Part shown: positions 3,156 to 20,690 of the stretch, in pieces | Layout: each line of letters opens with the position of its first letter | How positions within the stretch are numbered: position 1 is the stretch's first letter | Virus record (IMG/VR): IMGVR_UViG_3300024520_000555 | Location: 1-21,467 of that record | DNA length: 21,467 nt | Reading direction: 5' to 3' (one strand) | DNA from: a virus | Made by a program: the position numbers and the translations under genes | The notes under the pieces: model-generated | The model's input: the letters and a program-made list of their open reading frames with translations, nothing else | What the model was told of the DNA's origin: nothing | Databases searched by the model: none

Positions 3156-5077
3156 CAAAAGTTAGACGATTACAAAATTCTTTTGTTTCGGGGCAACTCG
3201 ACCCTGGAATGAGAATGCGTTCCGATATCTCAGCTTATAAAAATGGCCTGGAAACTCTTACAAATTTTAGGCCGTTACTGCATGGCGGCGTATCCCGTAG
3301 ACCGGGAACGAAATACATGGCCACCCTCAATGGGAAGTCCAGATTGGCGAAGTTTGTATTTTCTGAAAGCCAGCAATATATAGTGGCATTCCAGGCCAGC
3401 CGTATCGATGTGTATAGTTCAGACGGCTCTCTCGATCAGACAATCTCATCTAGTGTTCCATATACCTTGGCACAGCTTGATGAATTGAGATGGGCGCAAG
3501 CTGGCGATACCATGATCGTTGTTCACGAAGATCATCCTATTTATGAATTAAAGCGCACAGGCGCTTCTTCGTTTACTTGGTCTCTTTTAACATTTGAGCA
3601 AGATTCTTCCGGCGCTCCGCTTCATCAGCCATATTACAAATATGCACAAGAATCCATCACGCTAACTCCGAGCGCTACTACGGGCAGCGGCGTTACGCTT
3701 ACCCTTTCGTCCGGACATTGGACTACAGATTATATAAATGAAATTATCCGATATAAGGCAAAAGAGATTCTTGTTACCGGATATACCTCTGCAACGGTTC
3801 TTACCGGAACTGTACGGGAAACTCTGCCATCGACAACTGCTGATACCGATTGGGATGAACCGGCATTTCATGATGTCAAAGGCTATCCTCGAACAGCTAG
3901 ATTTCACTTACAGAGATTAATATTTGGTGGATCAAAGTCTCTTCCCGATACATTGTTTGGTTCTCACATTGGCGCATTTTATAAATTTAGTCTTGGTACG
4001 GCACAAGATGCTGAAGGCTTTCAGCAAACCATTGGTAGCGATCAAGTAAATTCAATCATGAATTTGGTGTCTTCTCGGCACTTGCAAATATTCACCAACC
4101 AAGCTGAATTTTTTGTGCCTACCACTGAGGCTGTTCCCTTCACTCCCACGAATATCGCTTTTCAAGAGCAAACCAGTTTTGGGAGTCTCGATGTTCCGCC
4201 ACGCAAAATGGATGGTGTGACTTTATTTGTTGATAGAACAGGAAAGCATCTTAGGGAGTTTTTGTTTTCAGACATTGAGCAAGCATATTCATCGGAATCT
4301 CTTTCCAAGCTCGTTCCTGAAATTATGGGGACTCCTAAGGATTGTGAGGTTTTGTCTGGTTCCAGTGAACATCCTGAACAATATTTATACATCATCAATA
4401 CTGATGGAGATGTTGCTCAACTCAATACGATGCGCTCTGAGAGTATATCTGGATGGTCTAAGTGGCAGACAAAAACAGGTGATAAATTTATATCCATCAC
4501 AGAGGTGGAAGATGCCATTTTTTTCTGCGTCGAGAGAAGTATAAATTCTTCTACTGTCTATTATTTAGAAAAACTAGATTATACCAGCACTCTTGATTGC
4601 AATATCACAAAGACTGGATCGGAGATAACAGCATGGACCGGGCTTTCTCATCTTGAGGGGGAAAGCGTAGACATTCTTGATAATGTCGATACGACTCATG
4701 GCGGAACATATACTGTAGCTTCTGCTGCAATTACATCTACTGCGGCGCACAGCAATGTTGATATTGGATTTGATTTTGCTCCGACGATAACAACCCTTCC
4801 TGTGGAGTTCACTCTATCTATAGGAACTATTTTAGGTGAATTGAAACGTATTGCGCGTGTCAATCTAGCTGTTATTGATTCCTACACATGGACTATTGGT
4901 AGCAATGTTGTTCCCTTATATGAGGTCACTGATGATTTGAGTGCAGCACCTGTTGCCAAGACCGGAACGTATGAATTTTTCATTCTGGGCTATGATAAAT
5001 TAGGCCAAGTTACAATTACGCAAGATGCGCCATTGCCATTGACAATACTTGGTATAGAAAAAGAGGTGGTTTTCTAA
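3152..5077 (+). CDS. Tail tubular protein B (nozzle, T7 gp12-like)
   Basis: A 641-residue beta-rich structural protein. The N-terminus has the conserved podovirus nozzle pattern: N-S-F-V-S-G-Q-L-D-P-G-M (residues 9-20), then R-S-D-I-S-A-Y-K-N-G-L, N-F-R-P-L, and G-G-V-S-R-R-P-G-T-K-Y (about 45-55). The remainder has the alternating hydrophobic pattern of a propeller-like tail protein. In podoviruses this protein forms the tubular nozzle below the adaptor, through which DNA passes. The T7 counterpart is of similar but somewhat larger size. The start overlaps the adaptor stop and its own TAA overlaps the next ATG (TAATG), so it is embedded in a coupled operon. No enzymatic motif was seen. Confidence 0.82.
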   Translation: MTKVRRLQNSFVSGQLDPGMRMRSDISAYKNGLETLTNFRPLLHGGVSRRPGTKYMATLNGKSRLAKFVFSESQQYIVAFQASRIDVYSSDGSLDQTISSSVPYTLAQLDELRWAQAGDTMIVVHEDHPIYELKRTGASSFTWSLLTFEQDSSGAPLHQPYYKYAQESITLTPSATTGSGVTLTLSSGHWTTDYINEIIRYKAKEILVTGYTSATVLTGTVRETLPSTTADTDWDEPAFHDVKGYPRTARFHLQRLIFGGSKSLPDTLFGSHIGAFYKFSLGTAQDAEGFQQTIGSDQVNSIMNLVSSRHLQIFTNQAEFFVPTTEAVPFTPTNIAFQEQTSFGSLDVPPRKMDGVTLFVDRTGKHLREFLFSDIEQAYSSESLSKLVPEIMGTPKDCEVLSGSSEHPEQYLYIINTDGDVAQLNTMRSESISGWSKWQTKTGDKFISITEVEDAIFFCVERSINSSTVYYLEKLDYTSTLDCNITKTGSEITAWTGLSHLEGESVDILDNVDTTHGGTYTVASAAITSTAAHSNVDIGFDFAPTITTLPVEFTLSIGTILGELKRIARVNLAVIDSYTWTIGSNVVPLYEVTDDLSAAPVAKTGTYEFFILGYDKLGQVTITQDAPLPLTILGIEKEVVF

Positions 5078-5535
5078 TGGGTGCCGCAGCATTACCGATG
5101 ATTATGGGCGCAGTTAGTATGGGATTCCAATTGAAAGCTGCTGGAGAAGCCCAAAAACAGGCTGATTTGGAAAGACAGCAATACGATGCGCAGCGTGAGG
5201 CGATTCGAGTTCAAGGATTGCAACAGGAAGCAGCAGAGATGCAGCGTCATCGCCAATTACTACAGGCGTCTATAGCGCAAGGTGCAGCACAAGGTCAAAG
5301 AAATCCCCGTACTGGCGGAACACCAGTCGCTAGGGATACTTTCGCATTGGCAGAATTAGATAGAACTTTATCAACTATTCGGTCAAATACACTTACTGGA
5401 ATACAAGTTAATCAACTTGGTGCAGCACAATCTAAAGCCGAGGCTCAATCCAAAAAATGGTCTGCTTTTGGAAAAGCGGCCCAAACTGGATACTCTTCGT
5501 ATAAATCTTATAAATCAATAAGTAAGACAACGTAA
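5077..5535 (+). CDS. Internal virion protein (T7 gp14-like)
   Basis: A 152-residue protein with a short Gly/Ala/Met-rich hydrophobic N-terminus (residues 1-18), then a long Gln/Glu/Arg-rich amphipathic helix likely to form a coiled coil (about 20-75), a Gly/Pro/Arg-rich turn (about 75-87) and a second helical part with a Ser/Lys-rich end. Architecture, size and place after the nozzle gene fit the small ejection protein of T7-type phages, which enters the outer membrane during DNA delivery. Primary sequence is poorly conserved in this family, so the call depends on architecture and order. Both ends are TAATG overlaps. Confidence 0.65.
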   Translation: MGAAALPMIMGAVSMGFQLKAAGEAQKQADLERQQYDAQREAIRVQGLQQEAAEMQRHRQLLQASIAQGAAQGQRNPRTGGTPVARDTFALAELDRTLSTIRSNTLTGIQVNQLGAAQSKAEAQSKKWSAFGKAAQTGYSSYKSYKSISKTT

Positions 5536-8500
5536 TGGTTAATAGAACCTATAGATCGGAAATCTCGGTTAATATCCCTGGTATAGTCCGTTCGGCAAAT
5601 TTATCAGAAGGATGGAGTCAAGCCGCTGATCAAATTGGTCAATTATCACAGCATTTTTTTAATAAGACTGCTGAAGAAATTGGCATAAAGGGGACGAAGG
5701 CTGGCACACGGGATGTTTCCAATCTCACTAAGGATCAATTGAAAGATTTTCAGCTTCATGATGACGAGGAGAAAGTTTTTAATGCCGCTTATAACGCTTC
5801 AGCTATAGCTGCATATGAGTATCGCATACAGACGCATATCGATGAACAGGCCAATACATTTTATCTTAATAATCAATTTAATTTAGAAAATTTTTTAGAA
5901 GAATTTAAATCCTTTCAATCTGGCTTAACCCAGAACATGGACGAGGATTTAGTCCCAAGTGCTAATATGTATGCCGAACAATATGTGAGTAAGTATGGAA
6001 AAGAGATTGCGGGAAATCAAAAGCGACAAGCCGATAAGCAACTTAGCGCCGATATTGATAAGGATGTAAAATCAAAAGTAGACACAATCCTATCTAATAT
6101 AAGAAACGAAGGTGAGATTTCTGAGGCAACATCTCAAGAGATCGATGCACTTACTAAGACCTTAGAAGACGGCGTTACTGCTAATCTAGTGACCCCGGAA
6201 AAATATAATCTCACATTTAGTCAGCTAGATACTTCGATCCCCCGTGCTTTGGGATATCATGAATTAAGAGGTTACACCGATCAGATTGCTCAGTCTTTTG
6301 CCCCCTATGGCGGCGCTGAAATACCTCCACCAGCTAGCTATTTCGAAGAACAGGAAAATTTAAGGACTGAGGCCAAGACAGCTAGTTCTTTGTTTTTTGA
6401 TGCCATAATTGATGGCGATCATCCATTAACAAAGGATATGTCTCCGGATCAAAGGACTGAGTTATCTGAGCTACTAAGACAAGATGAGAAACAACTGCTG
6501 GCCCACGAAGCCACTCTACAAGCAGAAATAAAAGAAAATCAAGACAACAACATAAAAGTAATAGATTCTGAATTTGAGTTAAAAATAGAACAACAGGCTA
6601 CCGTGTGGTTAGGCCTTCTTGAGCAAGGAAACCTTACGGAAATCCTCACACAGTATTACTCCTTAGAAAAAGAAATTAATGCATGGAAGGAGGACAATCC
6701 AAGTAATGCAGATATTCATATAAAAGCAAATGATCGCTTGAAGCAACTCGAGGGTGAATTGCAGGCTGCATATGGAAAGCGCCAAACAGCCAAGAATGCA
6801 GAAGACACCCTACAGGCTGCACAAGCGGATGTTACCAGGCTTATGGATCGACCTCCGTCGCTCACAGGAATGGCAATAACAAAAGGAGAAAAACAAAGCA
6901 TTGCAACGGTGTATACGCAGCTCGCTCTTGAAATCACGGGCGAGCCAAACATGGCCCGCTTGTTTTTAGATGACCGAGGTATTTCAGAAATTCTGAAACT
7001 GGTGGCTAAAAACCTTCCCTTACCCGATCAAATAATAAATCAAATGAATATGGCGGGTATGCCCAATCAAGAAAATAGTTTTGAGATTGTAAGTGGCATA
7101 GGGCAATTTTTAAAAGCCGCTGTTATCGATCATGCTGCTAATGATGCTAATGTAGGTGAAACAATAGAGCCCGGCGAGATTCCTCCTAATATTTTAGCAC
7201 AGATAAATAATGAATCATTAGCAAATCTAATTAACATATCGTCTCTAGCAAATCTTGGGGTTTTGTATGAAGCCAATTGGCACCAGATGAATGAAGCTAG
7301 GAGGGCTATTGATAAAAGAGAAAACGCGGAAGAAAGTGCAAGAAACGCAAACTTTGGTAGCTCGGAAGAGATGATCGATTTTAATCTACAGGAGGCGCTT
7401 CAGAATTGGACACCTAAGGGTGCACTTAATTTCTTTGAGGAAGTAAATATCAAGAGACTACGAGGTGACGGTACATGGGATGCAGAAAAAGCTATACTTG
7501 GAAAAATTTGGGAAGGTATTTGGGGTGGTAAATTTACCACTTTGCCCATTGTGGCGATCTTAGGCAATAAGCCATCCGATGAACCGCTACCTAGATTTGT
7601 CGTGGAAGAAATACGGAATACTGCCAAAGCTCTGATGGAGATATATGGATATTCAAAAAATGGCCAAGCCAAAGCATTCCAACAGGCTTTTGAAATAATT
7701 CAGGAAAGAAATAATATTGGTTTCACTAACGTGGGCGGCACGGAGAAGATAGTGCCTTATCCGCTGGAGGCCCAGCCGAGTTCACTATTTGTTACTGATA
7801 TACCACATGCCGGTGGGGCCATAAATACTCTTATTTCTGAGATGGCTATATACGAATTATTGGCTCCTCTATTTACAGACAATGTAATGTTTGATGTAGA
7901 TACAGACTTTGATTTGTATGAAGCTATTAGAACTGGCGAGATCGAAGCAATACCGATTTCAAAACAGGGCAAAGAAAACCAACAGCAATATCGTTTTGTT
8001 TGGCACAAAGAAGAAGGGACCACTCCTATCTATGAAAGATTTGGTGAGAATTTAATATGGAGTCTTCCACAAGACGAAAGCCCACCGCAATGGCTAACCA
8101 ATGTTTTGAGAAAATCTGCTGAAGACGCAACAGTATTTGGAGAAAAGGTTCCCATTGTTCAAGAAATTCTTTTTTTAGATAATGTAGTAAAACATTTTTC
8201 CGATAAATATAAAAAGACAATGAAGCTCGATGAAAATAATCCCAACTTGTTTGAAAGAATAGAAAATAGAGCATCTGAAATTACACAGATTCTCAAAATG
8301 AAATGGGGGGCAAATACTGGCGACAGTACGGTCCTTGAAGAGGTGCCTGATGTTGGGGAGGCTGACCAAAGCAAAATCCCTCTATCGTTTATTGGGGGTT
8401 ATTCGGTAAACGAAGACCTAACCGATGAAAAGTCAAGCGCTCGAGCAAATGAGATTATCATAGCTCTCGATGATGATATCGAAGCAGAGTTCACATCCGC

Positions 8501-9230
8501 GTTCACACCCGCTGGCCCAGGTGGCGGCGGAACAAGAGAACAGGTTGAGGAGGCTCCTGAGGGCACTGTTTCAGATGAAGATGCTATGCGTGACTTCCTG
8601 ACTGGAAGTGGCTGGAGACTTGCGTCATCGCCCGACACTGAGGCCAATCTTGTTCAGCACAGGGAATTAATTGATTTGGGCATATTCCCTGAAATGAATG
8701 ATGCAAAACTTTTCAGCTTTATGTCTTCAGAAACAAAAATAAATGAAGCAGCTAATGAAAATATAGATGCAAAATCTGTACTGGCAAAGTTTGTTCCGAT
8801 AACAAAAGGACTTAAACCATCAGACCTTGAAGATATTTCCAAAATATTTTTTACGGAAAATCCTTTAAGAACTAAAAAAGCAAGTGTGCCTGCTAAAGAT
8901 CAAAATAAGATAACCAAAGGCATGACACCTGAGGGCGCTGCGCTCTTTAATAAAATATTAGATAATCCAACCCGTTATCTTGTAATGGCAACTCTCGAAG
9001 AGCTTGAAATATTGAGTGCTTCCTCTCTGCCTGAATCATTCCTTGAATTTGTTGATGATGAAATACAAGTCAGAATGTCTCAGAAAGAGCCCCAGAGAGC
9101 AGGAGAAACGCGGGAAGAATATTGGAAACGCATGCATCTTAAAAAAGCTGGCGAAGAAAAGCGTCTTAAACTTTCGCAACATCTTGAACATCAAAGACTT
9201 TCCGCAAAAAACTATCCTCCGACTGGATAA
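5535..9230 (+). CDS. Large internal virion protein (T7 gp15-position, unusually long)
   Basis: A 1231-residue, largely helical, hydrophilic protein with no signal peptide or clear membrane segment. The N-terminal 150 residues look like other podovirus internal proteins: L-S-E-G-W-S-Q-A-A-D-Q-I (24-35), a long helical region, and F-N-A-A-Y-N-A-S-A-I-A-A-Y-E-Y at about 82-96. Residues about 300-460 are strongly coiled-coil-like. A Pro/Gly linker with G-P-G-G-G-G lies near residue 995, and the C-terminus is highly charged. In T7 the gene at this position encodes gp15, part of the ejected core, about 747 residues; this one is about 480 longer and I recognise no domain in the extra part. No lysozyme or transglycosylase motif was seen. 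The start overlaps the previous stop (TAATG). Confidence 0.65.
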   Translation: MVNRTYRSEISVNIPGIVRSANLSEGWSQAADQIGQLSQHFFNKTAEEIGIKGTKAGTRDVSNLTKDQLKDFQLHDDEEKVFNAAYNASAIAAYEYRIQTHIDEQANTFYLNNQFNLENFLEEFKSFQSGLTQNMDEDLVPSANMYAEQYVSKYGKEIAGNQKRQADKQLSADIDKDVKSKVDTILSNIRNEGEISEATSQEIDALTKTLEDGVTANLVTPEKYNLTFSQLDTSIPRALGYHELRGYTDQIAQSFAPYGGAEIPPPASYFEEQENLRTEAKTASSLFFDAIIDGDHPLTKDMSPDQRTELSELLRQDEKQLLAHEATLQAEIKENQDNNIKVIDSEFELKIEQQATVWLGLLEQGNLTEILTQYYSLEKEINAWKEDNPSNADIHIKANDRLKQLEGELQAAYGKRQTAKNAEDTLQAAQADVTRLMDRPPSLTGMAITKGEKQSIATVYTQLALEITGEPNMARLFLDDRGISEILKLVAKNLPLPDQIINQMNMAGMPNQENSFEIVSGIGQFLKAAVIDHAANDANVGETIEPGEIPPNILAQINNESLANLINISSLANLGVLYEANWHQMNEARRAIDKRENAEESARNANFGSSEEMIDFNLQEALQNWTPKGALNFFEEVNIKRLRGDGTWDAEKAILGKIWEGIWGGKFTTLPIVAILGNKPSDEPLPRFVVEEIRNTAKALMEIYGYSKNGQAKAFQQAFEIIQERNNIGFTNVGGTEKIVPYPLEAQPSSLFVTDIPHAGGAINTLISEMAIYELLAPLFTDNVMFDVDTDFDLYEAIRTGEIEAIPISKQGKENQQQYRFVWHKEEGTTPIYERFGENLIWSLPQDESPPQWLTNVLRKSAEDATVFGEKVPIVQEILFLDNVVKHFSDKYKKTMKLDENNPNLFERIENRASEITQILKMKWGANTGDSTVLEEVPDVGEADQSKIPLSFIGGYSVNEDLTDEKSSARANEIIIALDDDIEAEFTSAFTPAGPGGGGTREQVEEAPEGTVSDEDAMRDFLTGSGWRLASSPDTEANLVQHRELIDLGIFPEMNDAKLFSFMSSETKINEAANENIDAKSVLAKFVPITKGLKPSDLEDISKIFFTENPLRTKKASVPAKDQNKITKGMTPEGAALFNKILDNPTRYLVMATLEELEILSASSLPESFLEFVDDEIQVRMSQKEPQRAGETREEYWKRMHLKKAGEEKRLKLSQHLEHQRLSAKNYPPTG

Positions 9231-9241
9231 GAGTTTAATAA

Positions 9242-12200
9242 ATGGCTGAATCCAGATTTAATAATGAAGCCCCAGGCGAATCTTGGGAGCCTTCGCCTTT
9301 AAATTATAGTCCTCCGACTCCTGCCGGGATGCCGCCTTTCCGCGCAACCGAGTCTTCCGTTATGATTCGCGATCATCAATGGAGTCCGTTGCGGATTATA
9401 TCGGAAGGGTTCAAGCATAATAATATATTTGCCAGCGTTGCTGCTTCCGATTCTCACAATAGGGCTATTAGGCAGGCAGAGGGAGAAGATGCTCCTGATA
9501 TTGATCCATTTGAAATAGGCAAATATTCTCTCATGTTTCCTTTGGAATATGTGGGATTAACCAAAGAAACATCTGTTTATCTAACTGATAGAAGGATTCG
9601 TGAAGAGTTATTGTCTAAACAGATTATGCAGTCTAATGGTTGGTATACCGCACTAGGGTCGCTTGCGGGAGCAGTAACCGACCCCTTGCAAGTAGCAGTT
9701 CCCTTTGGAGCGTTAAAAACAGGCATCGGATTTGCACGTGGTTTTAAAACTACAGCTACACCGACATTCCTGGCTATGACGCTCGATGAAATGATTTTGA
9801 GCGATACTCAGCCAACACGATCAGCCGAAGAAAGTATGATGAATGTAGTTTTGTCTACTGGCATTGTAGGCATATTTGGAGGAATAGCAGGGCAATTTGG
9901 CAGCAAGTATGTCAATAGACTTTCAAAGCAGTATTTGGATGATGTAGATAATTTTTCATCTAGTACTCGCGGTGGTCCAGGGAGTCCTCCCTTTCCAAAA
10001 ACTGGTGGTGGAAGGGAAGTCCATCCAGGCGCGGACGATACACGGCCAATATTTAAAGGTACGGGGGCCGCTGCAACAAGAGAAGGATTTTCTGGCCCAA
10101 CTCCGCGTGAAGAGCGGGAAGCGGCGGGTTTAGCACCGGCATTTGGGCTAGAGAGACTTCCGGATACTCCGTTTAAAAGACTTTTAATGTCTCCGATAAC
10201 ATTTAATCGAGAAGTCACTGCGGGCTTAATCGAAAGCCCCGGTCTATTTTACAATGCGAACTTTCAGCTTCAAGCAACAGAAGTATCTGTAGAAACGAAA
10301 ATTGCTACTAACTGGCTTTATGATCTTGTAGAGACTTTGAATGTCGGTATTACAGAATATGCTTCTATGCGAGGACATAATCTAGGAGACAGTGCAACAG
10401 AACAAGTTATTGGCCGCGCTAAACTTGGTATTCAAGATACTTTTGGTAAAAGTCCTGATGTAACTGAAGCGCAGTATAGAGAGCAAACCACTATAGCCTT
10501 GCGTAATAACGAGGCTCATGAAAATCCAAATGTTGTGACTTATGCAAAACGTGTCAGGAAATTATTAAATAGATTGAGAGATGAGGCTATAGACGCTGGT
10601 TTATTTTCGGCTCATCATCGTTCCAATATTAAAAGACTTAGAACTGAAATTGAAGCACTTGAGGACAGCATTAAAGGTGTTCGTGAGGCTATAGGAAAAC
10701 AAAGAGAAATTATCTCTGAATTAGAAAAGAAAATTGGGGATTCAGAGCTTGCTACGGGAACAGAAGCTATACTGGCCGAATTACAGGCGGCAAGGAAAAA
10801 GTTAACTACATTACAGGGTATTGCCAAAGCCAAGACAGGCAAAAGAAGACAAGAATTAAAGAAAGAAAAATCCCTACAAGAGAATATTGATAGGATTGAA
10901 GAAGAGGGGCCAACTGTCTTCAATGAAGAAGGCTATGTGCCTCGTATTTGGCGCATTGATAAAATAGAGGCAAATGAAGCAGGTTTCCGGGAAGTAATAG
11001 GAAAATACCTACTAGATAAAGGTGTGCCGCTTCGAACTCTTGATAAAGAGCTTGATCTAATGCTTGAGCGCATTCGCCGGGATCATGATTTTGGTGCTTT
11101 AGGCGACAATAATCCAGGCATTGCACGATCTGCAAGAGAACGGCTTATTGATTTGCCTGATAGTGCGCTTTTTGAATTTATTGAAAATGATATTGAAACT
11201 ATCTTGCGGGCGCATGTAAGAACTTTTGCGACTGACTTGGAAATAGTCAAGCGCTTCGACACTGTTGATATGTATGACACAATTCAAGAAATGAAGCGTC
11301 TGGGAGAAGAATATATAAATTCTCTGCCAGCAGCAGAAAAAGCAAAAGCAAAAAAGATTCTTGAGCAAAATATAAATGATATAGGAGATTTAAGAGATAG
11401 GCTGCGTGGCACATATGGCCTTCCCGATGATCCATATAGACTTTTGTCAAGATTTTACAGAGTAATGAAGCAGTGGAATTACATATCAATGCTTGGCGGC
11501 GTAGTTTTGTCGGCTCTTCCTGATCTTGCGAGACCAATGATGACTGAAGGGTTCCATAGAGTGTTTGGAACATCATATGCTCTTCTTCAGCACAGTTCTC
11601 ACATACGAAAATTAAGTCAAAAAGAAACTCATCGTTCGGGAACTGGTGCCGATATGGTGATGAATACTCGCGCTTTAGCGATGTCAGATATGTGGGGAGA
11701 TGTATTTGGCCGTCAAACAGGATTAGAAAAAATTCTTCATCGTGGTGCTGAAGCATTTTCAATGATTAACCTGCTTAATCCCTGGAACGCAGCCATCAAA
11801 GAATGGGCGGGTTCAATTGTTGCTTCCCGCATCTTTGAATCTGCCGATCTCTGGGTTAGAGGAAACGAGGTATGGGGAAAATATAAACAAGCGCCCCATG
11901 ATTTTGTTAAATTGGCACGATCTGGTATCGATCTCCCTATGGCACAACGAATAATGAAAGAGTTCTATAAACATGGTGATATTGGCCATAAAGATGGAAC
12001 GCTTATGCGGGACATTCTTAAAAGCTCAAGACCAAATGATATAGATGCATTTATTGCTCTTCATATCGCGAGAGCTCGTAAACAAGGAAGTGTTTTTCTT
12101 GCGAATACAGACGCATGGGACGATTTAGAAGCTGTTATGCATTTTCGTGCTGCGGTTAAACAAGACGTTGATCGAACCATCGTTACTCCCGGTGCGGCAG

Positions 12201-12727
12201 ATAGACCATTGTGGATGTCTACAGAACTCGGCTCTGTTATTTCTCAATTCAAAGGATTTGCTGTTGGTGCAGCACAGCGTGTTTTGATATCCGGTCTTCA
12301 GGAAAGACAGGCTTATAATCTTTATGGTTTAGCTATGTTAGTTGGAATGGGTGTTTTTGTTAATCAACTGAAAAAAGACCTCTCTGGATATGAATACGGC
12401 CAAGATTCTCTGCCCGAAACAATTCTTGCGGGAATAGATCGCTCGGGAGCTTTGGGGTATTTTACAGATATCGAAAGAGCTTTAGCTGCTTTTTCCAATA
12501 ACTCTAGTATTTTCCAGGGAGAAAGAAATCTTCCTGACAGAGTTGTTGCTGGTTCTATACTTGGCCCAACAGCTTCTCGGCTTATAGACTTACGAAAAGT
12601 ACTGAGCGATACTTCAAGAGGAGAATTTGGTGAAGGTACAGCGGGTGCAATTAGAAGAATGTTTCCATTAAATAATCATTTTGCACTAAACAAAATGTTT
12701 GATGAAGCGCAACAGGCAGCACGGTAG
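9242..12727 (+). CDS. Large internal virion protein (T7 gp16-position ejection protein)
   Basis: A 1161-residue protein in the place of T7 gp16. Several hydrophobic Gly/Ala-rich stretches (about 136-170, 199-220, 745-765 and 1020-1040) could enter the cell envelope. A long coiled coil spans roughly 445-560 and ends in E-E-G-Y-V-P-R-I-W, a motif I associate with very large podovirus internal proteins. The pattern L-G-G-V-V-L-S-A-L-P-D-L-A-R near residue 750 and S-Q-F-K-G-F-A-V-G-A-A-Q near 1003 are also typical. The family is ejected into the host to complete the DNA channel. The N-terminal lytic transglycosylase domain of T7 gp16 is not visible, so wall cleavage must lie elsewhere if present. 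The ribosome binding site is weak. Confidence 0.7.
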   Translation: MAESRFNNEAPGESWEPSPLNYSPPTPAGMPPFRATESSVMIRDHQWSPLRIISEGFKHNNIFASVAASDSHNRAIRQAEGEDAPDIDPFEIGKYSLMFPLEYVGLTKETSVYLTDRRIREELLSKQIMQSNGWYTALGSLAGAVTDPLQVAVPFGALKTGIGFARGFKTTATPTFLAMTLDEMILSDTQPTRSAEESMMNVVLSTGIVGIFGGIAGQFGSKYVNRLSKQYLDDVDNFSSSTRGGPGSPPFPKTGGGREVHPGADDTRPIFKGTGAAATREGFSGPTPREEREAAGLAPAFGLERLPDTPFKRLLMSPITFNREVTAGLIESPGLFYNANFQLQATEVSVETKIATNWLYDLVETLNVGITEYASMRGHNLGDSATEQVIGRAKLGIQDTFGKSPDVTEAQYREQTTIALRNNEAHENPNVVTYAKRVRKLLNRLRDEAIDAGLFSAHHRSNIKRLRTEIEALEDSIKGVREAIGKQREIISELEKKIGDSELATGTEAILAELQAARKKLTTLQGIAKAKTGKRRQELKKEKSLQENIDRIEEEGPTVFNEEGYVPRIWRIDKIEANEAGFREVIGKYLLDKGVPLRTLDKELDLMLERIRRDHDFGALGDNNPGIARSARERLIDLPDSALFEFIENDIETILRAHVRTFATDLEIVKRFDTVDMYDTIQEMKRLGEEYINSLPAAEKAKAKKILEQNINDIGDLRDRLRGTYGLPDDPYRLLSRFYRVMKQWNYISMLGGVVLSALPDLARPMMTEGFHRVFGTSYALLQHSSHIRKLSQKETHRSGTGADMVMNTRALAMSDMWGDVFGRQTGLEKILHRGAEAFSMINLLNPWNAAIKEWAGSIVASRIFESADLWVRGNEVWGKYKQAPHDFVKLARSGIDLPMAQRIMKEFYKHGDIGHKDGTLMRDILKSSRPNDIDAFIALHIARARKQGSVFLANTDAWDDLEAVMHFRAAVKQDVDRTIVTPGAADRPLWMSTELGSVISQFKGFAVGAAQRVLISGLQERQAYNLYGLAMLVGMGVFVNQLKKDLSGYEYGQDSLPETILAGIDRSGALGYFTDIERALAAFSNNSSIFQGERNLPDRVVAGSILGPTASRLIDLRKVLSDTSRGEFGEGTAGAIRRMFPLNNHFALNKMFDEAQQAAR

Positions 12728-12735
12728 GAAGCAAT

Positions 12736-14781
12736 ATGCCAATTACAATTAGTGATACTACTCCAAGGGTTGTAACCGTTGTCGGCGGTACGCCACAAAC
12801 GGCTTTTACTGTTAGTTTTGAATGGTTTGCGGATGCTGATCTCAAAGTCTACAAGGATGGCGTTCTTCAGAGTTTGACCACTCATTACACAGCAACAGGT
12901 GCTGGGGTGTCCGGTGGCGGCACCGTGACCTTTGGAAGTGCTGTTAGTAATGCAACAGTTACCATTATTCGAGATATGGCCATTGCCAGAACTGCCAATT
13001 TCCCTGTTTCCGGATCATTTGATATCGGCGCTTTAAATGATGATCTTGCAAAAATCACGCTTATGCATCTCCAAACTGAGCGTGATATTGAGAAGCTCAT
13101 GTTTAAGGCTGATCCTTTTGATACAGTAAATGATTTTACAATACCAATTAAGGCAACAAGGGCCTCAAAGATATTTGGTTTTGATGCCAATGGCGATCCT
13201 GAAACCACTCTAGCTTCAGCAAATCTTACAACTCTTGGGACAATTACATCTGATATCACGGCTGTAGCCGGTATATCTGCAAATGTAACTACGGTTGCGG
13301 GAATAGCTGCAAATGTTACAGCGGTTGCTGGCGATGCAACTGACATTGGCGCAGTAGCAGCCAAGGCTACCGAAATTGGCCGACTTGGTACAGCAGACGC
13401 TGTTGCTGACATGAATACTCTAGGTACAGCTGCAATCGTGACTGATATGGACTTGTTGGCTACAAGCGCAAACGTCACTGCCATGGGATTGTTGGGAACA
13501 AGCGGTAATGTTACCGCAATGGGATTGCTTGGAGTCTCAGGTGTTATCACAGACATGGGTATTTTAGGCACTGCTGATGTCGTATCAGACATGAATGTTT
13601 TGGGTACGGCTGACGTAGTAACCGATATGAATGTCCTGGCTACATCAGATGTTGTGGCCGATATGAATACCCTGGCTACATCCGATATCGTTACCGATAT
13701 GAATTTGCTGGGAACAAGTGCAAATGTGACCGCGATGGGCCTCCTCGGTGTATCTGGCGTTATCACTGATATGGGAATTTTGGGAACTGCCGACGTAGTA
13801 GCAGACCTGAACACTCTCGGCACCGCCGATGTAGTGTCCGACATGAACACTCTCGGCACGGCTGACGCAGTGAGCGACATGAATACCCTGGCAGCGATAG
13901 CTTCCGACATAACGTCCGTGGCTGCTGATGCAACAGATATCGGGGCCGTGGCAGGGAAAGCCACAGAGATTGGACGGCTTGGCACTGCCGATGCAGTGGC
14001 GGACCTTGCCATCCTAGGCACGGCAGATGTCGTCACAGATATGAACGTGCTCGCTACGGCGGATGTCGTCACAGATATGAATGTGCTCGCCACCGCAGAC
14101 ATAGTCACTGACATGAACACACTCGGCACGAGCGCAAACGTAACCAATATGGCTACTGTGGCGACCAACATTGCTGGTGTTAATTCGTTCGCTGAACGCT
14201 ATCGCGTAGCATCCAGTGATCCGACAGGTAGCCTCGATGAAGGCGACCTCTATTACAACACGACCAGCAACAAGCTCAGATTTTATAACGGCACAAGCTG
14301 GGCGGATTCAGTTGCCACTGCTCAAGTCACATCAGTCGCGATCTCCGGCGCTGATGGCGTTAGCGTTACATCCGGTTCGCCCATCACAACCAGCGGCACC
14401 ATCGCGCTATCCGGCACTGGCCTCACGCCGAGAACAGGTGCAACGGGAAGTGCAAATATCCCGAGCGGAACGACAGCACAGAGAGACGGCTCTCCTGCTG
14501 CGGGGATGTTTAGATATAATTCAACAACCAATGAGTTTGAAGGATATGCCGGTTCTTCCCCGGCCTGGGGATCAATTGGCGGCGGCGCTGGATATTTCCT
14601 AGGCAATACAGCCGCAACCGGCGACACAACTTCAGGGCTTGAAGACATCTTCCGCGTGAATAGCGCTACCTGTGACAACTCATGTGAAATCGCAAGCGGC
14701 ACAAATGCCAGTGCCACGGGACCGCTTACAGTTTCGTCGGGAGTGACAGTAACCGTGAGCGGCGTATTGGCAGTGATATGA
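12736..14781 (+). CDS. Tail fibre with T7 gp17-type N-terminus and repeat stalk
   Basis: A 681-residue fibre. Residues 1 to about 130 match the phage T7 tail fibre N-terminal domain that docks on the tail: V-S-F-E-W-F-A-D-A-D-L-K-V-Y, then a G-G-x-V-T-F strand, I-I-R-D near 78 and a helical L-M-H-L-Q-T-E-R-D segment near 109. Residues 217-384 and 415-474 are 12-residue repeats of the type L-G-T-A-D-V-V-T-D-M-N-V. The C-terminal part has G-D-L-Y-Y-N-T-T-S-N-K-L-R-F-Y-N-G-T (503-520) and a beta-rich end, G-P-L-T-V-S-S-G-V-T-V-T-V, common in fibre tips. It probably forms a trimer joining the virion to the short fibres encoded downstream. Base composition changes to GC-rich inside the repeats. 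AGGAAGC is the ribosome binding site. Confidence 0.85.
   Translation: MPITISDTTPRVVTVVGGTPQTAFTVSFEWFADADLKVYKDGVLQSLTTHYTATGAGVSGGGTVTFGSAVSNATVTIIRDMAIARTANFPVSGSFDIGALNDDLAKITLMHLQTERDIEKLMFKADPFDTVNDFTIPIKATRASKIFGFDANGDPETTLASANLTTLGTITSDITAVAGISANVTTVAGIAANVTAVAGDATDIGAVAAKATEIGRLGTADAVADMNTLGTAAIVTDMDLLATSANVTAMGLLGTSGNVTAMGLLGVSGVITDMGILGTADVVSDMNVLGTADVVTDMNVLATSDVVADMNTLATSDIVTDMNLLGTSANVTAMGLLGVSGVITDMGILGTADVVADLNTLGTADVVSDMNTLGTADAVSDMNTLAAIASDITSVAADATDIGAVAGKATEIGRLGTADAVADLAILGTADVVTDMNVLATADVVTDMNVLATADIVTDMNTLGTSANVTNMATVATNIAGVNSFAERYRVASSDPTGSLDEGDLYYNTTSNKLRFYNGTSWADSVATAQVTSVAISGADGVSVTSGSPITTSGTIALSGTGLTPRTGATGSANIPSGTTAQRDGSPAAGMFRYNSTTNEFEGYAGSSPAWGSIGGGAGYFLGNTAATGDTTSGLEDIFRVNSATCDNSCEIASGTNASATGPLTVSSGVTVTVSGVLAVI
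13384..13887 (+). repeat. 14 tandem 12-codon repeats in the fibre stalk (block 1)
   Basis: Fourteen uninterrupted units of 36 bases encode L-(G/A)-(T/V)-(A/S)-x-x-(V/I)-x-x-M-x-x in the fibre (residues 217-384). Spacing is exact with no insertions. Units are alike at protein level but differ at many synonymous positions; for example the first Leu is TTA at 13564, TTG at 13600 and CTC at 13816. Confidence 0.9.
13978..14157 (+). repeat. Five further 12-codon repeats in the fibre stalk (block 2)
   Basis: Five units (residues 415-474) of the same 12-residue motif follow a 30-residue interruption. The interruption, D-A-T-D-I-G-A-V-A-G-K-A-T-E-I-G-R, closely copies the segment at residues 200-216 that precedes block 1, so a lead-in plus repeats has been duplicated. 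The last unit is degenerate. Confidence 0.85.
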
Positions 14782-14791
14782 GGAGAATTAA

Positions 14792-15766
14792 ATGAGTACC
14801 CTTAAAGCCGATGCGATCACATCGGCCAGTTCAAATACCGATGTTGTAATCACGGGTGCAGGATCAGGCGTCCCTGATATCGAGGCGTCGTTCAAGGTGG
14901 GCGGATCAGCCGGGGTTCCCACTGCTTCAATCCAAGACGATGCCGTAACCCTTGCGAAAATGGCAACGGGGGTTGACGGGGTAGTTATCACCTACGATGC
15001 GTCAGGCAACCCAGTCCACGTTGGCCCGGGAACTGACGGTCAGGTTTTAACCAGTACCGGCGCTGGCAGTCCACCAGCGTTTGAAGCTGTTAGCGTCAAT
15101 AATGGCAACTGGTCGGGCACCGACCTCAGTGTTGCCAATGGTGGAACCGGGGCGTCCACATTCGCATCAAACAACGTCCTATTGGGTAATGGGACGAGCG
15201 CTCTTCAGGTCGTCGCGCCCTCGACAAGTGGGAACATCTTGACGAGCAACGGAAGTACCTGGCAATCGACGGCAGCAGCCAGTGCTGGGATGACCATGGG
15301 AACGGAGGTCGCGACTACTTCCGGTAACAACGTAACATTTGGTAGTATTCCGGCAGGAACTAAGATGATTGTGTTGGGGCTGGACGCCGTGTCAAGCAAC
15401 AGTAGCGGCATACTAATAGTTCAACTAGGAGATTCTGGAGGACTCGAAACATCCGGCTATCTCTCAGTCGCCTCCAGAGCCATAAACGCCAATGTGTCTT
15501 ATACTTCAGGCTCCACCGCTCATTTCTCATTGCAGAACTCCAATGACGGTGCGGGTATCACGCATTCCGGTTCAGTAATTTTTACCTTGCAAGATTCCAC
15601 TAACCATTGCTGGACAATGTTCGGAACCATGTCGTGTCCAGCGTCCAGCAATAGGCAAAATACTTGCGCTGGACGTAAACAGCTATCGGGGGAATTGACA
15701 CAATTAAAATTCTTTAATGCTAGTGGTAGTTTCAACGCCGGTTCGGTGAACATAACTTATATGTAA
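14792..15766 (+). CDS. Short tail fibre / receptor-binding protein 1
   Basis: A 324-residue protein. Residues 1-50 begin M-S-T-L-K-A-D-A-I-T-S and contain G-S-G-V-P-D-I-E-A-S-F-K-V-G, shared almost exactly with the second short fibre. A repeat-like linker holds L-S-V-A-N-G-G-T-G-A-S-T and L-L-G-N-G-T-S-A-L (about 112-136), common in fibre shafts. The C-terminal domain from about 168 has a pattern I know from phage adhesins: I-P-A-G-T-K-M-I-V, V-Q-L-G-D-S-G-G-x-E-T-S-G-Y, and a final F-N-A-G-S-V-N-I-T-Y. It is predicted to bind a cell-surface receptor; which one cannot be read. GAGGAG is the ribosome binding site. The chaperone-like gene follows after 13 bases. Confidence 0.75.
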   Translation: MSTLKADAITSASSNTDVVITGAGSGVPDIEASFKVGGSAGVPTASIQDDAVTLAKMATGVDGVVITYDASGNPVHVGPGTDGQVLTSTGAGSPPAFEAVSVNNGNWSGTDLSVANGGTGASTFASNNVLLGNGTSALQVVAPSTSGNILTSNGSTWQSTAAASAGMTMGTEVATTSGNNVTFGSIPAGTKMIVLGLDAVSSNSSGILIVQLGDSGGLETSGYLSVASRAINANVSYTSGSTAHFSLQNSNDGAGITHSGSVIFTLQDSTNHCWTMFGTMSCPASSNRQNTCAGRKQLSGELTQLKFFNASGSFNAGSVNITYM

Positions 15767-15779
15767 CTAGGAGAATAAT

Positions 15780-16163
15780 ATGTTTCTATCGATCACCGGC
15801 GTCACGGCTGATAATAGATTAGCTAAGTATCAGCCATTTGAGATTGAAGCTGATGCCGACACCCATGCAGCGGCTTACAGCGGGTTTGTGGTTCAAGACC
15901 CCGGCGGTAATCAGTCTTTATGGACAATCGATGCATCCGCAAAGACAGTCACCCGCGATACCGATGTTGAAGCTGCCGCCGCCACCGCTCTGGCTTGGGA
16001 ACAAGTGCGCGGTGAGCGCAATAGGTTGTTGACTGAAACGGACTGGTGGGTTTTGCGTGGTTCGATCACTGACGCACAGACCGCCTATCGCACAGCACTT
16101 CGCGATCTTCCGGCGAACACGGCTGATCCCTCAAATCCCACATGGCCAGAGGAGCCTAGCTGA
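15780..16163 (+). CDS. Tail fibre assembly chaperone-like protein
   Basis: A 127-residue protein ending in the motif of the phage tail assembly chaperone family (PF16778 type): E-R-N-R-L-L-T-E-T-D-W-W (80-91), then Y-R-T-A-L-R-D-L-P (107-115), then P-S-N-P-T-W-P (121 onward in outline). Such proteins are usually encoded just after a fibre gene and assist its folding or trimerisation. The N-terminal 70 residues are a small beta-rich domain. AGGAGAAT precedes the start. Its stop overlaps the start of the next fibre gene (TGATG). The assignment to a specific fibre partner is inference from adjacency. Confidence 0.72.
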   Translation: MFLSITGVTADNRLAKYQPFEIEADADTHAAAYSGFVVQDPGGNQSLWTIDASAKTVTRDTDVEAAAATALAWEQVRGERNRLLTETDWWVLRGSITDAQTAYRTALRDLPANTADPSNPTWPEEPS

Positions 16164-16903
16164 TGACCTCAACCTTAAAAGCTGACGTTCTCACCAGCAA
16201 AACGACCAACGGTGATCTAAGTATTTCCGGCGACGGCTCCGGTGTTCCTGACATCGAGGCCTCGTTCAAGGTTGGTTCCGTAGCCGGTGTTCCGATGGCT
16301 AGTATCCGCACAAGTTCTGGAACCGCGAGCAGTTCGACTTTTCTGCGAGGCGATGGAACTTGGAATGCACCAGCGGCTGGCGGCGGTGCTTGGAATATAA
16401 TCGGCACGGCAGTTGCTAGTGACAGCGCTACAGTGACCGTCACAGGGCTGAATAGCACCTATGACACCTTTGTAATTGCCATTTCGGACATGGTTCCCGC
16501 TACAGATGATGCGAACCTTGATTTCCGATTAGGTGACGCAAGTGGGATCGATACGACTTCCGGCGATTATCGATATCACTCCGGCGTAGTTGTAGATAAT
16601 TCAACCAGCTATGCAGCAACTTCTAGTACCTCAGATTCAGTTATAAGAATAGGCGGAGGCATTGGGAACGCCACTGGGGAAGGGATGGGGGCTATGCTGT
16701 ATTTAACCCAGCCGGGAGATGCCACTACATTCCCCAAACTTATTGGACACTGGACGTCCATAAGCGCTGAACCAAGAACGAGGGGAGGCACGGTACATGG
16801 GCATAGAACAGCGGTTATAACTGTCGACCGCGTACAGGTTCTTATGAACACAGGCAACATAACTTCAGGCCGAATGACAGTATGGGGAATCGCTCATGCC
16901 TAG
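16163..16903 (+). CDS. Short tail fibre / receptor-binding protein 2
   Basis: A 246-residue protein. Its N-terminus, M-T-S-T-L-K-A-D-V-L-T-S and then G-S-G-V-P-D-I-E-A-S-F-K-V-G, is homologous to short fibre 1, but the C-terminal domain is different. From about residue 72 it follows the common adhesin plan: A-W-N-I-I-G-T-A-V-A-S, then Y-D-T-F-V-I, L-D-F-R-L-G, D-Y-R-Y, G-N-A-T-G-E, and near the end V-D-R-V-Q-V-L-M-N-T-G-N-I-T-S-G. That plan recurs in short fibre 3. Shared N-terminus with swapped tips implies a common attachment site and different receptors. The start is a TGATG overlap; the stop overlaps the next start by 8 bases. Confidence 0.75.
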   Translation: MTSTLKADVLTSKTTNGDLSISGDGSGVPDIEASFKVGSVAGVPMASIRTSSGTASSSTFLRGDGTWNAPAAGGGAWNIIGTAVASDSATVTVTGLNSTYDTFVIAISDMVPATDDANLDFRLGDASGIDTTSGDYRYHSGVVVDNSTSYAATSSTSDSVIRIGGGIGNATGEGMGAMLYLTQPGDATTFPKLIGHWTSISAEPRTRGGTVHGHRTAVITVDRVQVLMNTGNITSGRMTVWGIAHA

Positions 16904-17147
16904 ACACCATATGGTTAACGACGCACAGGTCGCCTTCACCCCAGAGGAGGAAGCCGCGCGCGATGCGGAGGAGCAAGCCTGGGCGGATGGCGCAGCAGCC
17001 AGAGCAGCAGAAGCGGTTCAGAACAATCGCCGTGGTGCCTACCAAGCAGAGGCTGACACACTCTATTTTGAGGAGCAGGCGGGTGAGGTGTCTGCCGGAA
17101 CTTGGGCCGCGAAGCGTGCCGAAATTAAATCGAGGTATCCAAAATGA
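16896..17147 (+). CDS. Small fibre-associated protein, paralogue A
   Basis: An 83-residue, Ala/Glu-rich, helical protein starting M-P-R-H-H-M and containing F-T-P-E-E-E-A-A-R-D-A-E-E and, at the end, I-K-S-R-Y-P-K. It is 62 of 83 residues identical (no gaps, hand count) to the protein at 17874. Small proteins ending in I-K-x-R-(Y/F)-P-K directly after fibre genes are frequent in phages, and I take them as chaperone-like fibre partners. The pattern R-x-A-Y-x-A-E-A-D ... R-Y-P can be aligned loosely with the R-N-x-L-L-x-x-T-D ... D-L-P of the PF16778-type protein at 15780, so they may be distant relatives. Its start lies 8 bases inside the preceding fibre gene and its stop overlaps the next start (ATGA). 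Confidence 0.62.
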   Translation: MPRHHMVNDAQVAFTPEEEAARDAEEQAWADGAAARAAEAVQNNRRGAYQAEADTLYFEEQAGEVSAGTWAAKRAEIKSRYPK

Positions 17148-17857
17148 GTACCATTGAATCTGATGCCGTCACAGCCGCAACCGGCACGAACACCAATTTA
17201 GCACTAACCGGCAAAGGCACCGGCAAGGTTGCGATTGGTGATGCGTCCTTGCTTTTTCCTGATGCTGATGGATCATCAAGCGGCGATGTCCTCCAAACAA
17301 ATGGAAGTGGCACCCTCAGTTTCGCAACACCTTCTGGAGGTGCTTGGACTATGATTACACATACTGTGGCAACGGCGGCATCTACTATCTCTTTCACAGG
17401 GTTTGATTCGTCAACTTATGGCGCGTACCAAGTGTTTTGGCGATATACCCCTGGCACTGATAATTCGCGGCTTTATTTGAGAACGTCGAGCAATGGTGGA
17501 AGCTCATACGATTCCGGTGCTACAGATTATCGATATGCAGGCACGACGACGAACGATAGTAACGCTACGGCTATCGAGTATTCTGCGGGTAATGACCACA
17601 TAACCTTACAAGGTGCGAACGGTGGAAACGCCTCGGGCGAACACAACATGGGATACCTTTTCATAGTAAACCCCGACGCCGCCGTGAATTGTTATATCAA
17701 CATTTTCAACGCTAATCAGTGGGACGACGTAAAGATGGCCTACTTTGCCGGTGCTGCCATGCGGGCGAGTGCCGCTGATGTAGATGCTATTCAACTTTAC
17801 CCCAACAACGGAACTGCTACTGGCGAGTTTACATTTTTGGGAATGAAAAAAGCGTAA
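17144..17857 (+). CDS. Short tail fibre / receptor-binding protein 3
   Basis: A 237-residue protein. It starts M-S-T-I-E-S-D-A-V-T-A-A-T, like the other short fibres, then has a fibre-shaft segment with G-K-G-T-G-K-V-A-I-G-D and V-L-Q-T-N-G-S-G-T-L. The C-terminal domain from about 64 follows the same plan as short fibre 2 (A-W-T-M-I ... L-Y-L-R-T-S ... D-Y-R-Y ... G-N-A-S-G-E ... A-A-D-V-D-A-I-Q-L-Y) with low overall identity. It is a predicted adhesin tip of unknown specificity. The start is inside the stop of the previous small gene (ATGA overlap), and the partner small gene follows after 16 bases. Confidence 0.75.
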   Translation: MSTIESDAVTAATGTNTNLALTGKGTGKVAIGDASLLFPDADGSSSGDVLQTNGSGTLSFATPSGGAWTMITHTVATAASTISFTGFDSSTYGAYQVFWRYTPGTDNSRLYLRTSSNGGSSYDSGATDYRYAGTTTNDSNATAIEYSAGNDHITLQGANGGNASGEHNMGYLFIVNPDAAVNCYINIFNANQWDDVKMAYFAGAAMRASAADVDAIQLYPNNGTATGEFTFLGMKKA

Positions 17858-17873
17858 AGGATAATTAATTAAA

Positions 17874-18125
17874 ATGTCTAGACATCATATGATCGACGGG
17901 GTGGAGGTCGCCTTCACCGCTGCGGAAGAATCCGCGAGAGACGCACAGGAGCAGGCATGGGCCGATGGCGCGGCGGATAGAGCGGCGGAAGCAGTTCAGA
18001 ATAACCGCCGCAACGCTTATCAAGCTGAAGCTGACCACCTCCATCTAGAAGAAGAGCGCGGCGAGGTAGCGGCAGGAACGTGGGCTGCGAAGGTCGCCGA
18101 GATCAAAACAAGGTTTCCCAAATGA
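17874..18125 (+). CDS. Small fibre-associated protein, paralogue B
   Basis: An 83-residue paralogue of the protein at 16896 with equal length and 21 substitutions, mostly near the N-terminus. Shared landmarks are R-H-H-M, E-Q-A-W-A-D-G-A-A, A-V-Q-N-N-R-R, A-Y-Q-A-E-A-D and I-K-(S/T)-R-(Y/F)-P-K. It follows fibre 3 just as paralogue A follows fibre 2, so each fibre appears to carry its own matched partner. AAAGGATAA is the ribosome binding site. Its stop overlaps the start of a truncated fibre-like reading frame at 18122 in exactly the way paralogue A overlaps fibre 3. Confidence 0.62.
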   Translation: MSRHHMIDGVEVAFTAAEESARDAQEQAWADGAADRAAEAVQNNRRNAYQAEADHLHLEEERGEVAAGTWAAKVAEIKTRFPK

Positions 18126-18184
18126 GTACCATATCACTTGGCCGGATGAATCGGCTTAACTTTAACTTTAGAGGAATTTTATAA
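18122..18184 (+). pseudogene. Truncated start of a further fibre gene
   Basis: After paralogue B the sequence AAATGAGTACCAT repeats the junction at 17142-17154, where fibre 3 starts inside the stop of paralogue A. Here the frame reads M-S-T-I-S-L and then diverges, ending at TAA 18182-18184 after 20 codons. The simplest reading is that a fourth short fibre gene once stood here and was lost, leaving only its first codons. The stop overlaps the ATG of the next gene (TAATG), so it may now act as a short coupling leader peptide. The match is only 13 bases, so chance is not excluded. Confidence 0.5.
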
Positions 18185-19791: not shown

Positions 19792-20250
19792 ATGCTTGAT
19801 TTTATTATGACGGCACTAACAGGTGGTGCTACAGGCATACTTGGATCGGTTTTGGGAAAAGTATTTGGGTTCATTGATGGTTGGCAAGAAGAGAAAAAAG
19901 CCAAAAATGAACATGCCAGAACTATGGAGATGACAAGACTCCAGAATGAATTACGTTCTCAAGAGCTTGAAAGTGAATTGGGTATTGTTGAAGCCCAGGC
20001 GGCAGGGGCTGCGAAGACAGCAAGTTATCAGCACGATATATCCGCTGGAGTAAGTTATCCATGGGTTGCAGCGATATTACGACTGGTTCGCCCGCTTTTG
20101 ACATTCGCTCTGATAGGTCTGATGCTTTTCATTTACATTCGCATAAGTGATCTTGCGCAGCAGGAAGCTATAATTCAAAGCGTTATTTATATGTCGTCAA
20201 CGGCAGTGCTTTGGTGGTTTGGTGATAGGGCTATGCGACCAAAGAATTAG
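19792..20250 (+). CDS. GTA-type 3-TM holin
   Basis: A 152-residue protein with a Gly-rich hydrophobic N-terminus (about 1-28), a charged helical middle (32-75), and two strong membrane helices (about 100-117 and 128-143) ending in W-W-F-G-D-R. This layout and the W-W-F-G-(D/E)-R end match the family of three-TM holins described for release of gene transfer agents in alphaproteobacteria, which is also common in their phages. It follows the endolysin stop with no gap, with GGGAGTGG as ribosome binding site. It is the last rightward gene; its stop overlaps the stop of the leftward regulator by 4 bases, so no terminator can lie between them. Confidence 0.75.
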   Translation: MLDFIMTALTGGATGILGSVLGKVFGFIDGWQEEKKAKNEHARTMEMTRLQNELRSQELESELGIVEAQAAGAAKTASYQHDISAGVSYPWVAAILRLVRPLLTFALIGLMLFIYIRISDLAQQEAIIQSVIYMSSTAVLWWFGDRAMRPKN

Positions 20251-20690
20251 TTTGAATTTTCCTTGATAAATTTATCTTGAGCTAATTCAAGGCAATTTAT
20301 CGCAGATTCTATGTTCGTATAGATATTTTTTGTTTCTTCGGAAGCAAACAATGAAACTCTAGGTCTGATTGTTGGGTCTGGATATGAAACATTGGCGCTG
20401 CCATTACATTTCTTTAAATGCTTTATGGCATTTGAAATCTCTTGTCTGACGTCAGGTAATTTTTGCCTGTCTTTTGGATGAATGTCGATTTCATAATCCA
20501 ATGCCTCAAGTACAGCATCCACTCTGACCAAGTGCATGTTTCGCTTCCCGCTTTCATAATTAGCTAATGTAGCGGGTGTGGTATCTGCCATGCTTGCAAG
20601 CGTTAGCTGACTCAATCCACGCTCTTCTCTCATGCGTCGGATTTCTTTGGCAACCCAATGGGGCTTATATGGTAATTGCTTTGTTGTCAT
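20247..20690 (-). CDS. XRE-family helix-turn-helix regulator
   Basis: A 147-residue protein. Residues 13-68 form a typical Cro/CI-type HTH domain: I-R-R-M-R-E-E-R-G-L-S-Q-L-T-L-A, then the recognition-helix region T-P-A-T-L-A-N-Y-E-S-G-K-R, and L-E-A-L-D-Y-E-I near 61-68. The C-terminal part is helical with no peptidase motif, so it is not a LexA-like cleavable repressor. The ATG is fixed by an in-frame stop just upstream. It is the last gene of a leftward operon opposing the late genes. Likely role: repressor or control of early/late switching; an antitoxin-like or Cro-like protein is possible. The ribosome binding site at the start is poor (AAAGGC 11 bases away). Confidence 0.82.
   Translation of the reverse strand: MTTKQLPYKPHWVAKEIRRMREERGLSQLTLASMADTTPATLANYESGKRNMHLVRVDAVLEALDYEIDIHPKDRQKLPDVRQEISNAIKHLKKCNGSANVSYPDPTIRPRVSLFASEETKNIYTNIESAINCLELAQDKFIKENSN

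Follow-up and report, generated by a model that had tools for sequence, protein, structure and literature searches.

The 21.5 kilobase (kb) virus fragment IMGVR_UViG_3300024520_000555 of IMG/VR (all 21,467 nucleotides; hereafter the window) holds the structural half of a marine podovirus, in which three short fibre genes, each paired with its own small partner gene (positions 14,792 to 18,184), follow the gene of a 681-amino acid (aa) fibre. As judged from comparative sequence analysis, these genes probably encode a receptor-binding complex of branched type that offers three non-equivalent sockets and whose fibres are each folded by a chaperone of their own. The large fibre would be the tail-attached anchor, with its C-terminal domain as the platform, and the three short fibres would plug into it by N-terminal peptides of ~30-45 residues that belong to three non-equivalent classes, each with its own socket; one virion could then carry all three. 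Each fibre would end in a lectin-like beta-sandwich tip that binds the host surface, and each tip would be folded and trimerised by the small protein encoded directly after it, of which the N half may hold its own tip and the helical C half may be a generic trimerising module. Recombination would move a tip and the N half of its partner as one cassette, with joints at the docking peptide or linker on one side and at the partner C half on the other, and whole units would be gained or lost.

The three short fibre open reading frames (ORFs; 324, 246 and 237 aa) reported by a first-pass annotation of the window are present, each with a small ORF directly after it, and the locus comprises the following features:

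12736..14781, + strand: presumed anchor fibre, 681 aa (PHROG tail fibre protein match; ANC profile, E=2e-31; position in arrays).
14792..15766, + strand: fibre 1, 324 aa, with class I docking peptide (residues 1-45), linker and TIP1 tip (residues 165-324) (ORFs and profiles; tip homologue HTVC019P gp43).
15780..16163, + strand: partner 1, 127 aa, a putative modular tail fibre chaperone with beta-rich N half (residues 1-59) and helical PF16778 C half (PF16778, E=2.3e-13; AlphaFold2 model; C half homologous to PDB 2kz6).
16163..16903, + strand: fibre 2, 246 aa, with class III docking peptide, linker and TIP2 tip (residues 73-246), a predicted 12-stranded beta sandwich (PHROG, profiles and model).
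16896..17147, + strand: partner 2, 83 aa, with PARn N half (tip-matched) and PARc C half (ORFs and profiles).
17144..17857, + strand: fibre 3, 237 aa, with class II docking peptide (TGTNT...GKG) and TIP2 tip (ORFs and profiles).
17874..18125, + strand: partner 3, 83 aa, 75% identical to partner 2 (pairwise comparison).
18122..18184, + strand: fossil fibre start MSTISLGRMNRLNFNFRGIL followed by a stop, 20 codons, a feature absent from the first-pass annotation (compared with the start of fibre 3).

According to profiles of the window and its relatives, every fibre begins with a docking peptide of ~45 residues, which a linker connects to a tip of ~160-180 residues. The docking segments of fibres 1 and 2 are 69% identical (z=16.6 versus shuffles), those of fibres 1 and 3 40% identical (z=5.9) and those of fibres 2 and 3 35% identical (z=5.0); the M-S-T start described as common to all three fails for fibre 2, which begins MTSTLKAD. 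The tips are divergent, as had been proposed from the window alone, but not unrelated: those of fibres 2 and 3 (TIP2) both match phrog_14820 and are 30% identical (z=12), and the TIP1 tip of fibre 1 and TIP2 are remote relatives within one fold family (hhalign E=7e-25). In the model of fibre 2 (mean predicted local distance difference test score, pLDDT, 85.6) the docking part is extended and the tip is a 12-stranded beta sandwich, which resembles many uncharacterised phage proteins in BFVD. Sequence searches found no solved structure for the fibre. Because Foldseek returned no match of this tip to PDB folds below 0.001 and VIA-align gave middling Z scores (up to 8.1, to beta sandwiches of galectin, invertase and Pgp3 type; 7.3 to a fibre of Haloferax tailed virus 1), the modelled tip, which is only loosely galectin-like, is called a lectin-like beta sandwich and nothing more specific.

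Four scans of viral contigs recovered relatives (designated L003-L094), and in ~60 related loci the plan recurs: an anchor is followed by one, two or three units, each made up of a docking peptide, a tip and a partner. The ANC domain comprises the C-terminal ~83 aa of the anchor (residues 599-681), and a gene ending in this domain lies directly upstream in every docked-fibre array for which upstream sequence is available. The middle of the anchor consists of LED-like repeats, with a long series of ~14-residue repeats (LGTADVVTDMN...) at 13390-14160 and a Pfam LED_rpt match below the cut-off. A Pfam search detected no T4 gp10-like domain that would support an anchor platform of that type. The gene directly after the anchor gene of L070 (4756-5259; also L071:1364-1867) encodes a protein of 167 aa that starts with a docking peptide and closes with an ANC domain; it may extend the branch, plugging in itself while presenting one more platform.

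Among the 26 arrays that are complete, non-redundant and counted by hand, three full docked fibres are found in 15, two in 6 and one in 5, and none has more than three. The generalisation that podoviruses usually carry one fibre therefore does not fit this group, in which three is the commonest count. Relatives do not always possess the same three units, and with unit numbers of one to three, tip-matched partners and exchanged tips all observed among them, the expandable fibre and chaperone cassette with swapped tips envisaged by the first-pass annotation is well supported. The fossil fibre start beyond partner 3 overlaps the stop of partner 3 as real fibre starts do, and docking remnants close the arrays of L067, L070 and L082; together these sequences point to unit loss. 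Genes are coupled at other junctions too: the start of partner 2 overlaps the stop of fibre 2 by 8 nucleotides and the start of fibre 3 overlaps the stop of partner 2 (ATGA), and both kinds of junction are also seen in L007, L024, L026 and L032.

Docking peptides within one array differ from each other more than expected. Without any class labels, their identity within an array is 0.499, versus 0.547 expected at random (p=1e-4). When classes are assigned by motif (class I, NTD-type; class II, with a GTNT insertion; class III, NGD-type), three different labels occur in 15 of 16 three-unit arrays versus 4.2 expected (p=5e-5), one of the 15 (L038) counting an unclassified dock as its third label. 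The orders I-II-III, I-III-II and II-I-III all occur, and TIP1 is found on all three classes. The locus shares one feature with branched complexes, namely several receptor-binding protein (RBP) genes whose products each join a conserved docking peptide at the N terminus to a binding domain that varies.

These observations bear on the proposal of the first-pass annotation that the fibres are alternatives for one shared docking site, in which case they would compete and the array would be a menu for virions. We consider this rather unlikely. The docking peptides are indeed homologous (35-69% identical in the window) and units can shift position (unit 2 of L031 corresponds to unit 1 of L032, 88% identical over 1.1 kb), but docks within one array are less alike than chance, interchangeable sites offer no reason for the presence of one of each class, and a tip relocated between L035 and L038 has the docking peptide of another class. 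It is very improbable that the three fibres form one heterotrimer with one chain per docking class. The existence of three classes, usually one of each, and the maximum of three units would suit such a heterotrimer, but arrays of one or two units exist, and the tips within one array can differ in fold (TIP2 beside a Gly-rich or C1q-like tip), each with its own chaperone, so that the tips could not co-trimerise; a heterotrimer restricted to the docking part is compatible with these data.

Near-identical viruses differ by natural swaps that locate the joints between modules. L024 and L054 are 99.7% identical over 6,210 base pairs up to the first fibre, where they share a dock class and then possess different tips (TIP2 in one virus, C1q-like in the other, the latter label being a resemblance by eye to HTVC019P gp40/gp41) and unrelated partner N halves; from the C half of the partner into the beginning of the following fibre they are 91% identical again, ending in stretches of 30/30. 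Likewise, the similarity of L079 to both L025 and L083 (98% identical in each case) breaks off at the tip, and in L025 it resumes with the C half of the partner. Between L079 and L082 (99.5% identical over 8.2 kb), nothing beyond partner 1 is shared, L082 having only a 48-aa docking remnant there. Unit 2 of L035 and unit 3 of L038 are ~99% identical in DNA beyond the first 120 nucleotides (~35 codons), which encode class III and class II docks respectively, and one tip (97% identical) is carried on a class III dock in L011 versus a class I dock in L075. Thus, the exchanged piece is the tip together with the partner N half, and docking peptide and tip are separable. The contig end of L054 (8050-8134) repeats the linker region of the same contig in reverse complement; this assembly artefact was left out of the swap comparison.

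The partners are likewise modular. Partner 1 combines an APCn N half with a PF16778 C half, and partners 2 and 3 each combine PARn with PARc. Partner 1 was modelled with AlphaFold2 (mean pLDDT 94) as a beta-rich N domain followed by helices. The expectation that PF16778-type chaperones follow the fibres was correct for partner 1, which scores above the cut-off, but partners 2 and 3 match no Pfam family; their position and pairing allow them to be called chaperone-like, though not PF16778 members. Their status as 75% identical paralogues was confirmed (z=30).

Over 68 non-redundant fibre/partner units, all 6 TIP1 tips precede an APCn N half, which no TIP2 tip does, 42 of the 47 TIP2 tips preceding a PARn N half (Fisher p=8e-8); Gly-rich tips have a common third N-half family in 3 of 4 units. 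The partner C half (PF16778 or PARc) is independent of tip family (p=0.68), and all four N/C combinations occur. Within TIP2, tip distance is correlated with N-half distance (Mantel r=0.55, p=0.0002; r=0.53 after docking distance is removed), and once the tip is accounted for, docking distance has no significant correlation with N-half distance (r=0.13, p=0.11). Single-linkage clustering gave groups of tips and partner halves that were too coarse to use, as linkers joined the tips. The co-variation of sequences and the model of partner 1 indicate that partners combine a tip-matched variable N domain with a generic helical C domain.

The 83-aa partners might instead be accessory virion proteins or other proteins that travel with fibre genes, a reading favoured by the failure of PARc to match Pfam or PDB and by the retroelement that adjoins a PARc relative in a phage isolate (described below). 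We regard it as unlikely: with N half and tip family unchanged, either PARc or PF16778 can follow, and the N half co-varies with the tip. In Pseudoalteromonas phage ACA1 (L097), a PARc-like small protein (4863-5138) is encoded right after the reverse transcriptase of a diversity-generating retroelement.

Several points weigh against the interpretation as a branched, chaperone-assisted complex. The motif that separates classes I and III was defined post hoc and involves few positions, and unsupervised clustering of docks failed to recover these two classes with k=3, recovering them in part with four groups. The non-independence of related arrays makes the p-values too small. For these reasons, the label-free test and the L035/L038 and L011/L075 comparisons carry more weight than the class counts. 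The one-of-each pattern could partly reflect descent from one old triplication, which accounts for the existence of classes but not by itself for the persistence of one of each despite changes in tips and order; such persistence would follow from three non-equivalent sockets. PARc has no detectable homology to PF16778, and the idea that it is a distant member of that family was rejected (hhalign of APC versus PARc, probability 0.3%); nor did PARc match any solved structure in a PDB sequence search. The partner model has no clear fold match to TfaMu (5YVQ) or Pam3 gp25 (7YPX) in Foldseek and VIA-align, the only match being 2kz6, for the C half. Finally, we infer, rather than observe, the incorporation of the fibres (jointly or otherwise), the position of the anchor sockets, lectin activity and chaperone action.

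Recent in-place duplication of fibres 2 and 3, as first proposed, is not supported by an approximately unbiased test (p=0.0046) in which their tips are not sisters, whereas the tips of L026 are sisters (100/99 support). Thus, copying within an array does happen, but the tips of the window came by different routes. That units in general are recent tandem copies that drifted, with docking classes of no functional meaning, is quite improbable: the 75% identity of partners 2 and 3, the L026 tips and the fossil starts at array ends accord with it, but, besides the result for the tips, partner 3 is about as close to a partner in L006/L026 (77% identical) as to partner 2.

The array of the window is not a misassembly of one contig, because a second assembly (L005/L023) has the same gene order at 99.98% identity over 6.4 kb. 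Two large virion proteins and the anchor are encoded upstream of the short fibres. The guanine-plus-cytosine content is 0.49-0.59 in the fibre region versus 0.40-0.42 in most neighbouring genes, as would be expected of an exchanged region. The nearest relatives of the tail tube B protein are those of Methylophilales phage MEP301 and pelagiphages (29-31% identity), and the backbone gene at 9242-12727 matched only other assemblies of the same virus. In tblastn searches of 50,697 phage records, neither fibre 2 nor the class I docking and linker segment had a match; partner 2 had three weak half-length matches, and those of fibre 1 were confined to tip or linker. Among genome contigs, the docking profile matched one contig of a metagenome-assembled genome labelled Halobacteriovorax, with one weak match in Magnetococcales; the former contig equals an already recovered viral contig in length and was probably co-binned, and neither match assigns a host. 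Right after lysis-type genes, a helix-turn-helix regulator (XRE-like, by eye) is encoded on the minus strand (20247-20690), opposing the structural genes, which hints at a temperate lifestyle.

The partners resemble the Tfa family (Tfa of phage Mu; gp25 of Pam3). Cryo-electron microscopy of Pam3 gp24/gp25 shows a non-conserved N domain that binds the fibre tip and a conserved helical C domain that trimerises (PMC9608196). As in that family, the gene is right after the fibre, and in these arrays the N half, unlike the C half, varies in step with the tip; the model of partner 1 has the domain order of gp25 (beta N domain, then helices). Unlike the Tfa family, these loci encode several chaperones, one per fibre, the two C-half types that interchange lack detectable homology to each other, the 83-aa forms are much shorter, and a sequence search of the PDB with the window partners matched neither TfaMu nor gp25.

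Anchors (here a presumed one) that carry several RBPs, each with a short conserved N-terminal docking sequence and an exchangeable C-terminal binding domain, are common to these arrays and to K1-5, whose adapter bears hepta- and undecapeptide RBPs, the anchor-branch systems of G7C and KP32, in which RBPs are joined by distinct short peptides (PMC6872550), and Ackermannviridae, in which the positions of tailspike proteins TSP1-4 are domain-coded (PMC11414711). In contrast to those systems, the fibres here have small beta-sandwich tips without a recognised enzyme domain and a separate chaperone gene each, and the docking peptides are homologous classes instead of unrelated peptides, with no T4 gp10-like domain detected. 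The isolate HTVC019P (L095) has a row of short fibres, gp40-gp48, including TIP1 and three tandem TIP2 fibres (6671-8506, annotated as hypothetical) followed by a PARn-PF16778 partner. It shares the short TIP1 and TIP2 fibres and the partner type, but has other N termini, no STLKAD-type docking peptide and one partner after three TIP2 fibres. Alteromonas phages A5 and V22 exemplify the exchange of fibre plus chaperone between distantly related marine phages (PMC10579305); there too the fibre moves with its cognate chaperone, but with one unit per phage as described and chaperones of DUF4376. Tail fibre genes are also known from marine metaviromic islands (PMC3909814). In mostly openly readable literature, we found no description of the combination of up to three homologous, non-equivalent docking classes, a chaperone gene per fibre, and tips exchanged with half a chaperone.

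Tentatively, and at slightly less than an even chance, a widespread group of uncultured, mostly marine podoviruses may share a three-socket docking code: their common adhesin platform would take exactly three plug types that exclude one another, any tip family could be fitted to these, and each tip would travel with its matching chaperone half, the other half being a shared recombination hinge. If the proposed complex exists, it would show how abundant uncultured marine podoviruses keep several adhesins and swap them while still assembling. The specificities of dock, tip and chaperone can be told apart in sequence and are individually testable, and the swaps seen when near-identical viruses are compared show at which points fibres and chaperones separate. 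The pairing of tip and N half would provide a sequence rule for matching chaperone to fibre in a group in which nearly all such proteins are annotated as hypothetical.

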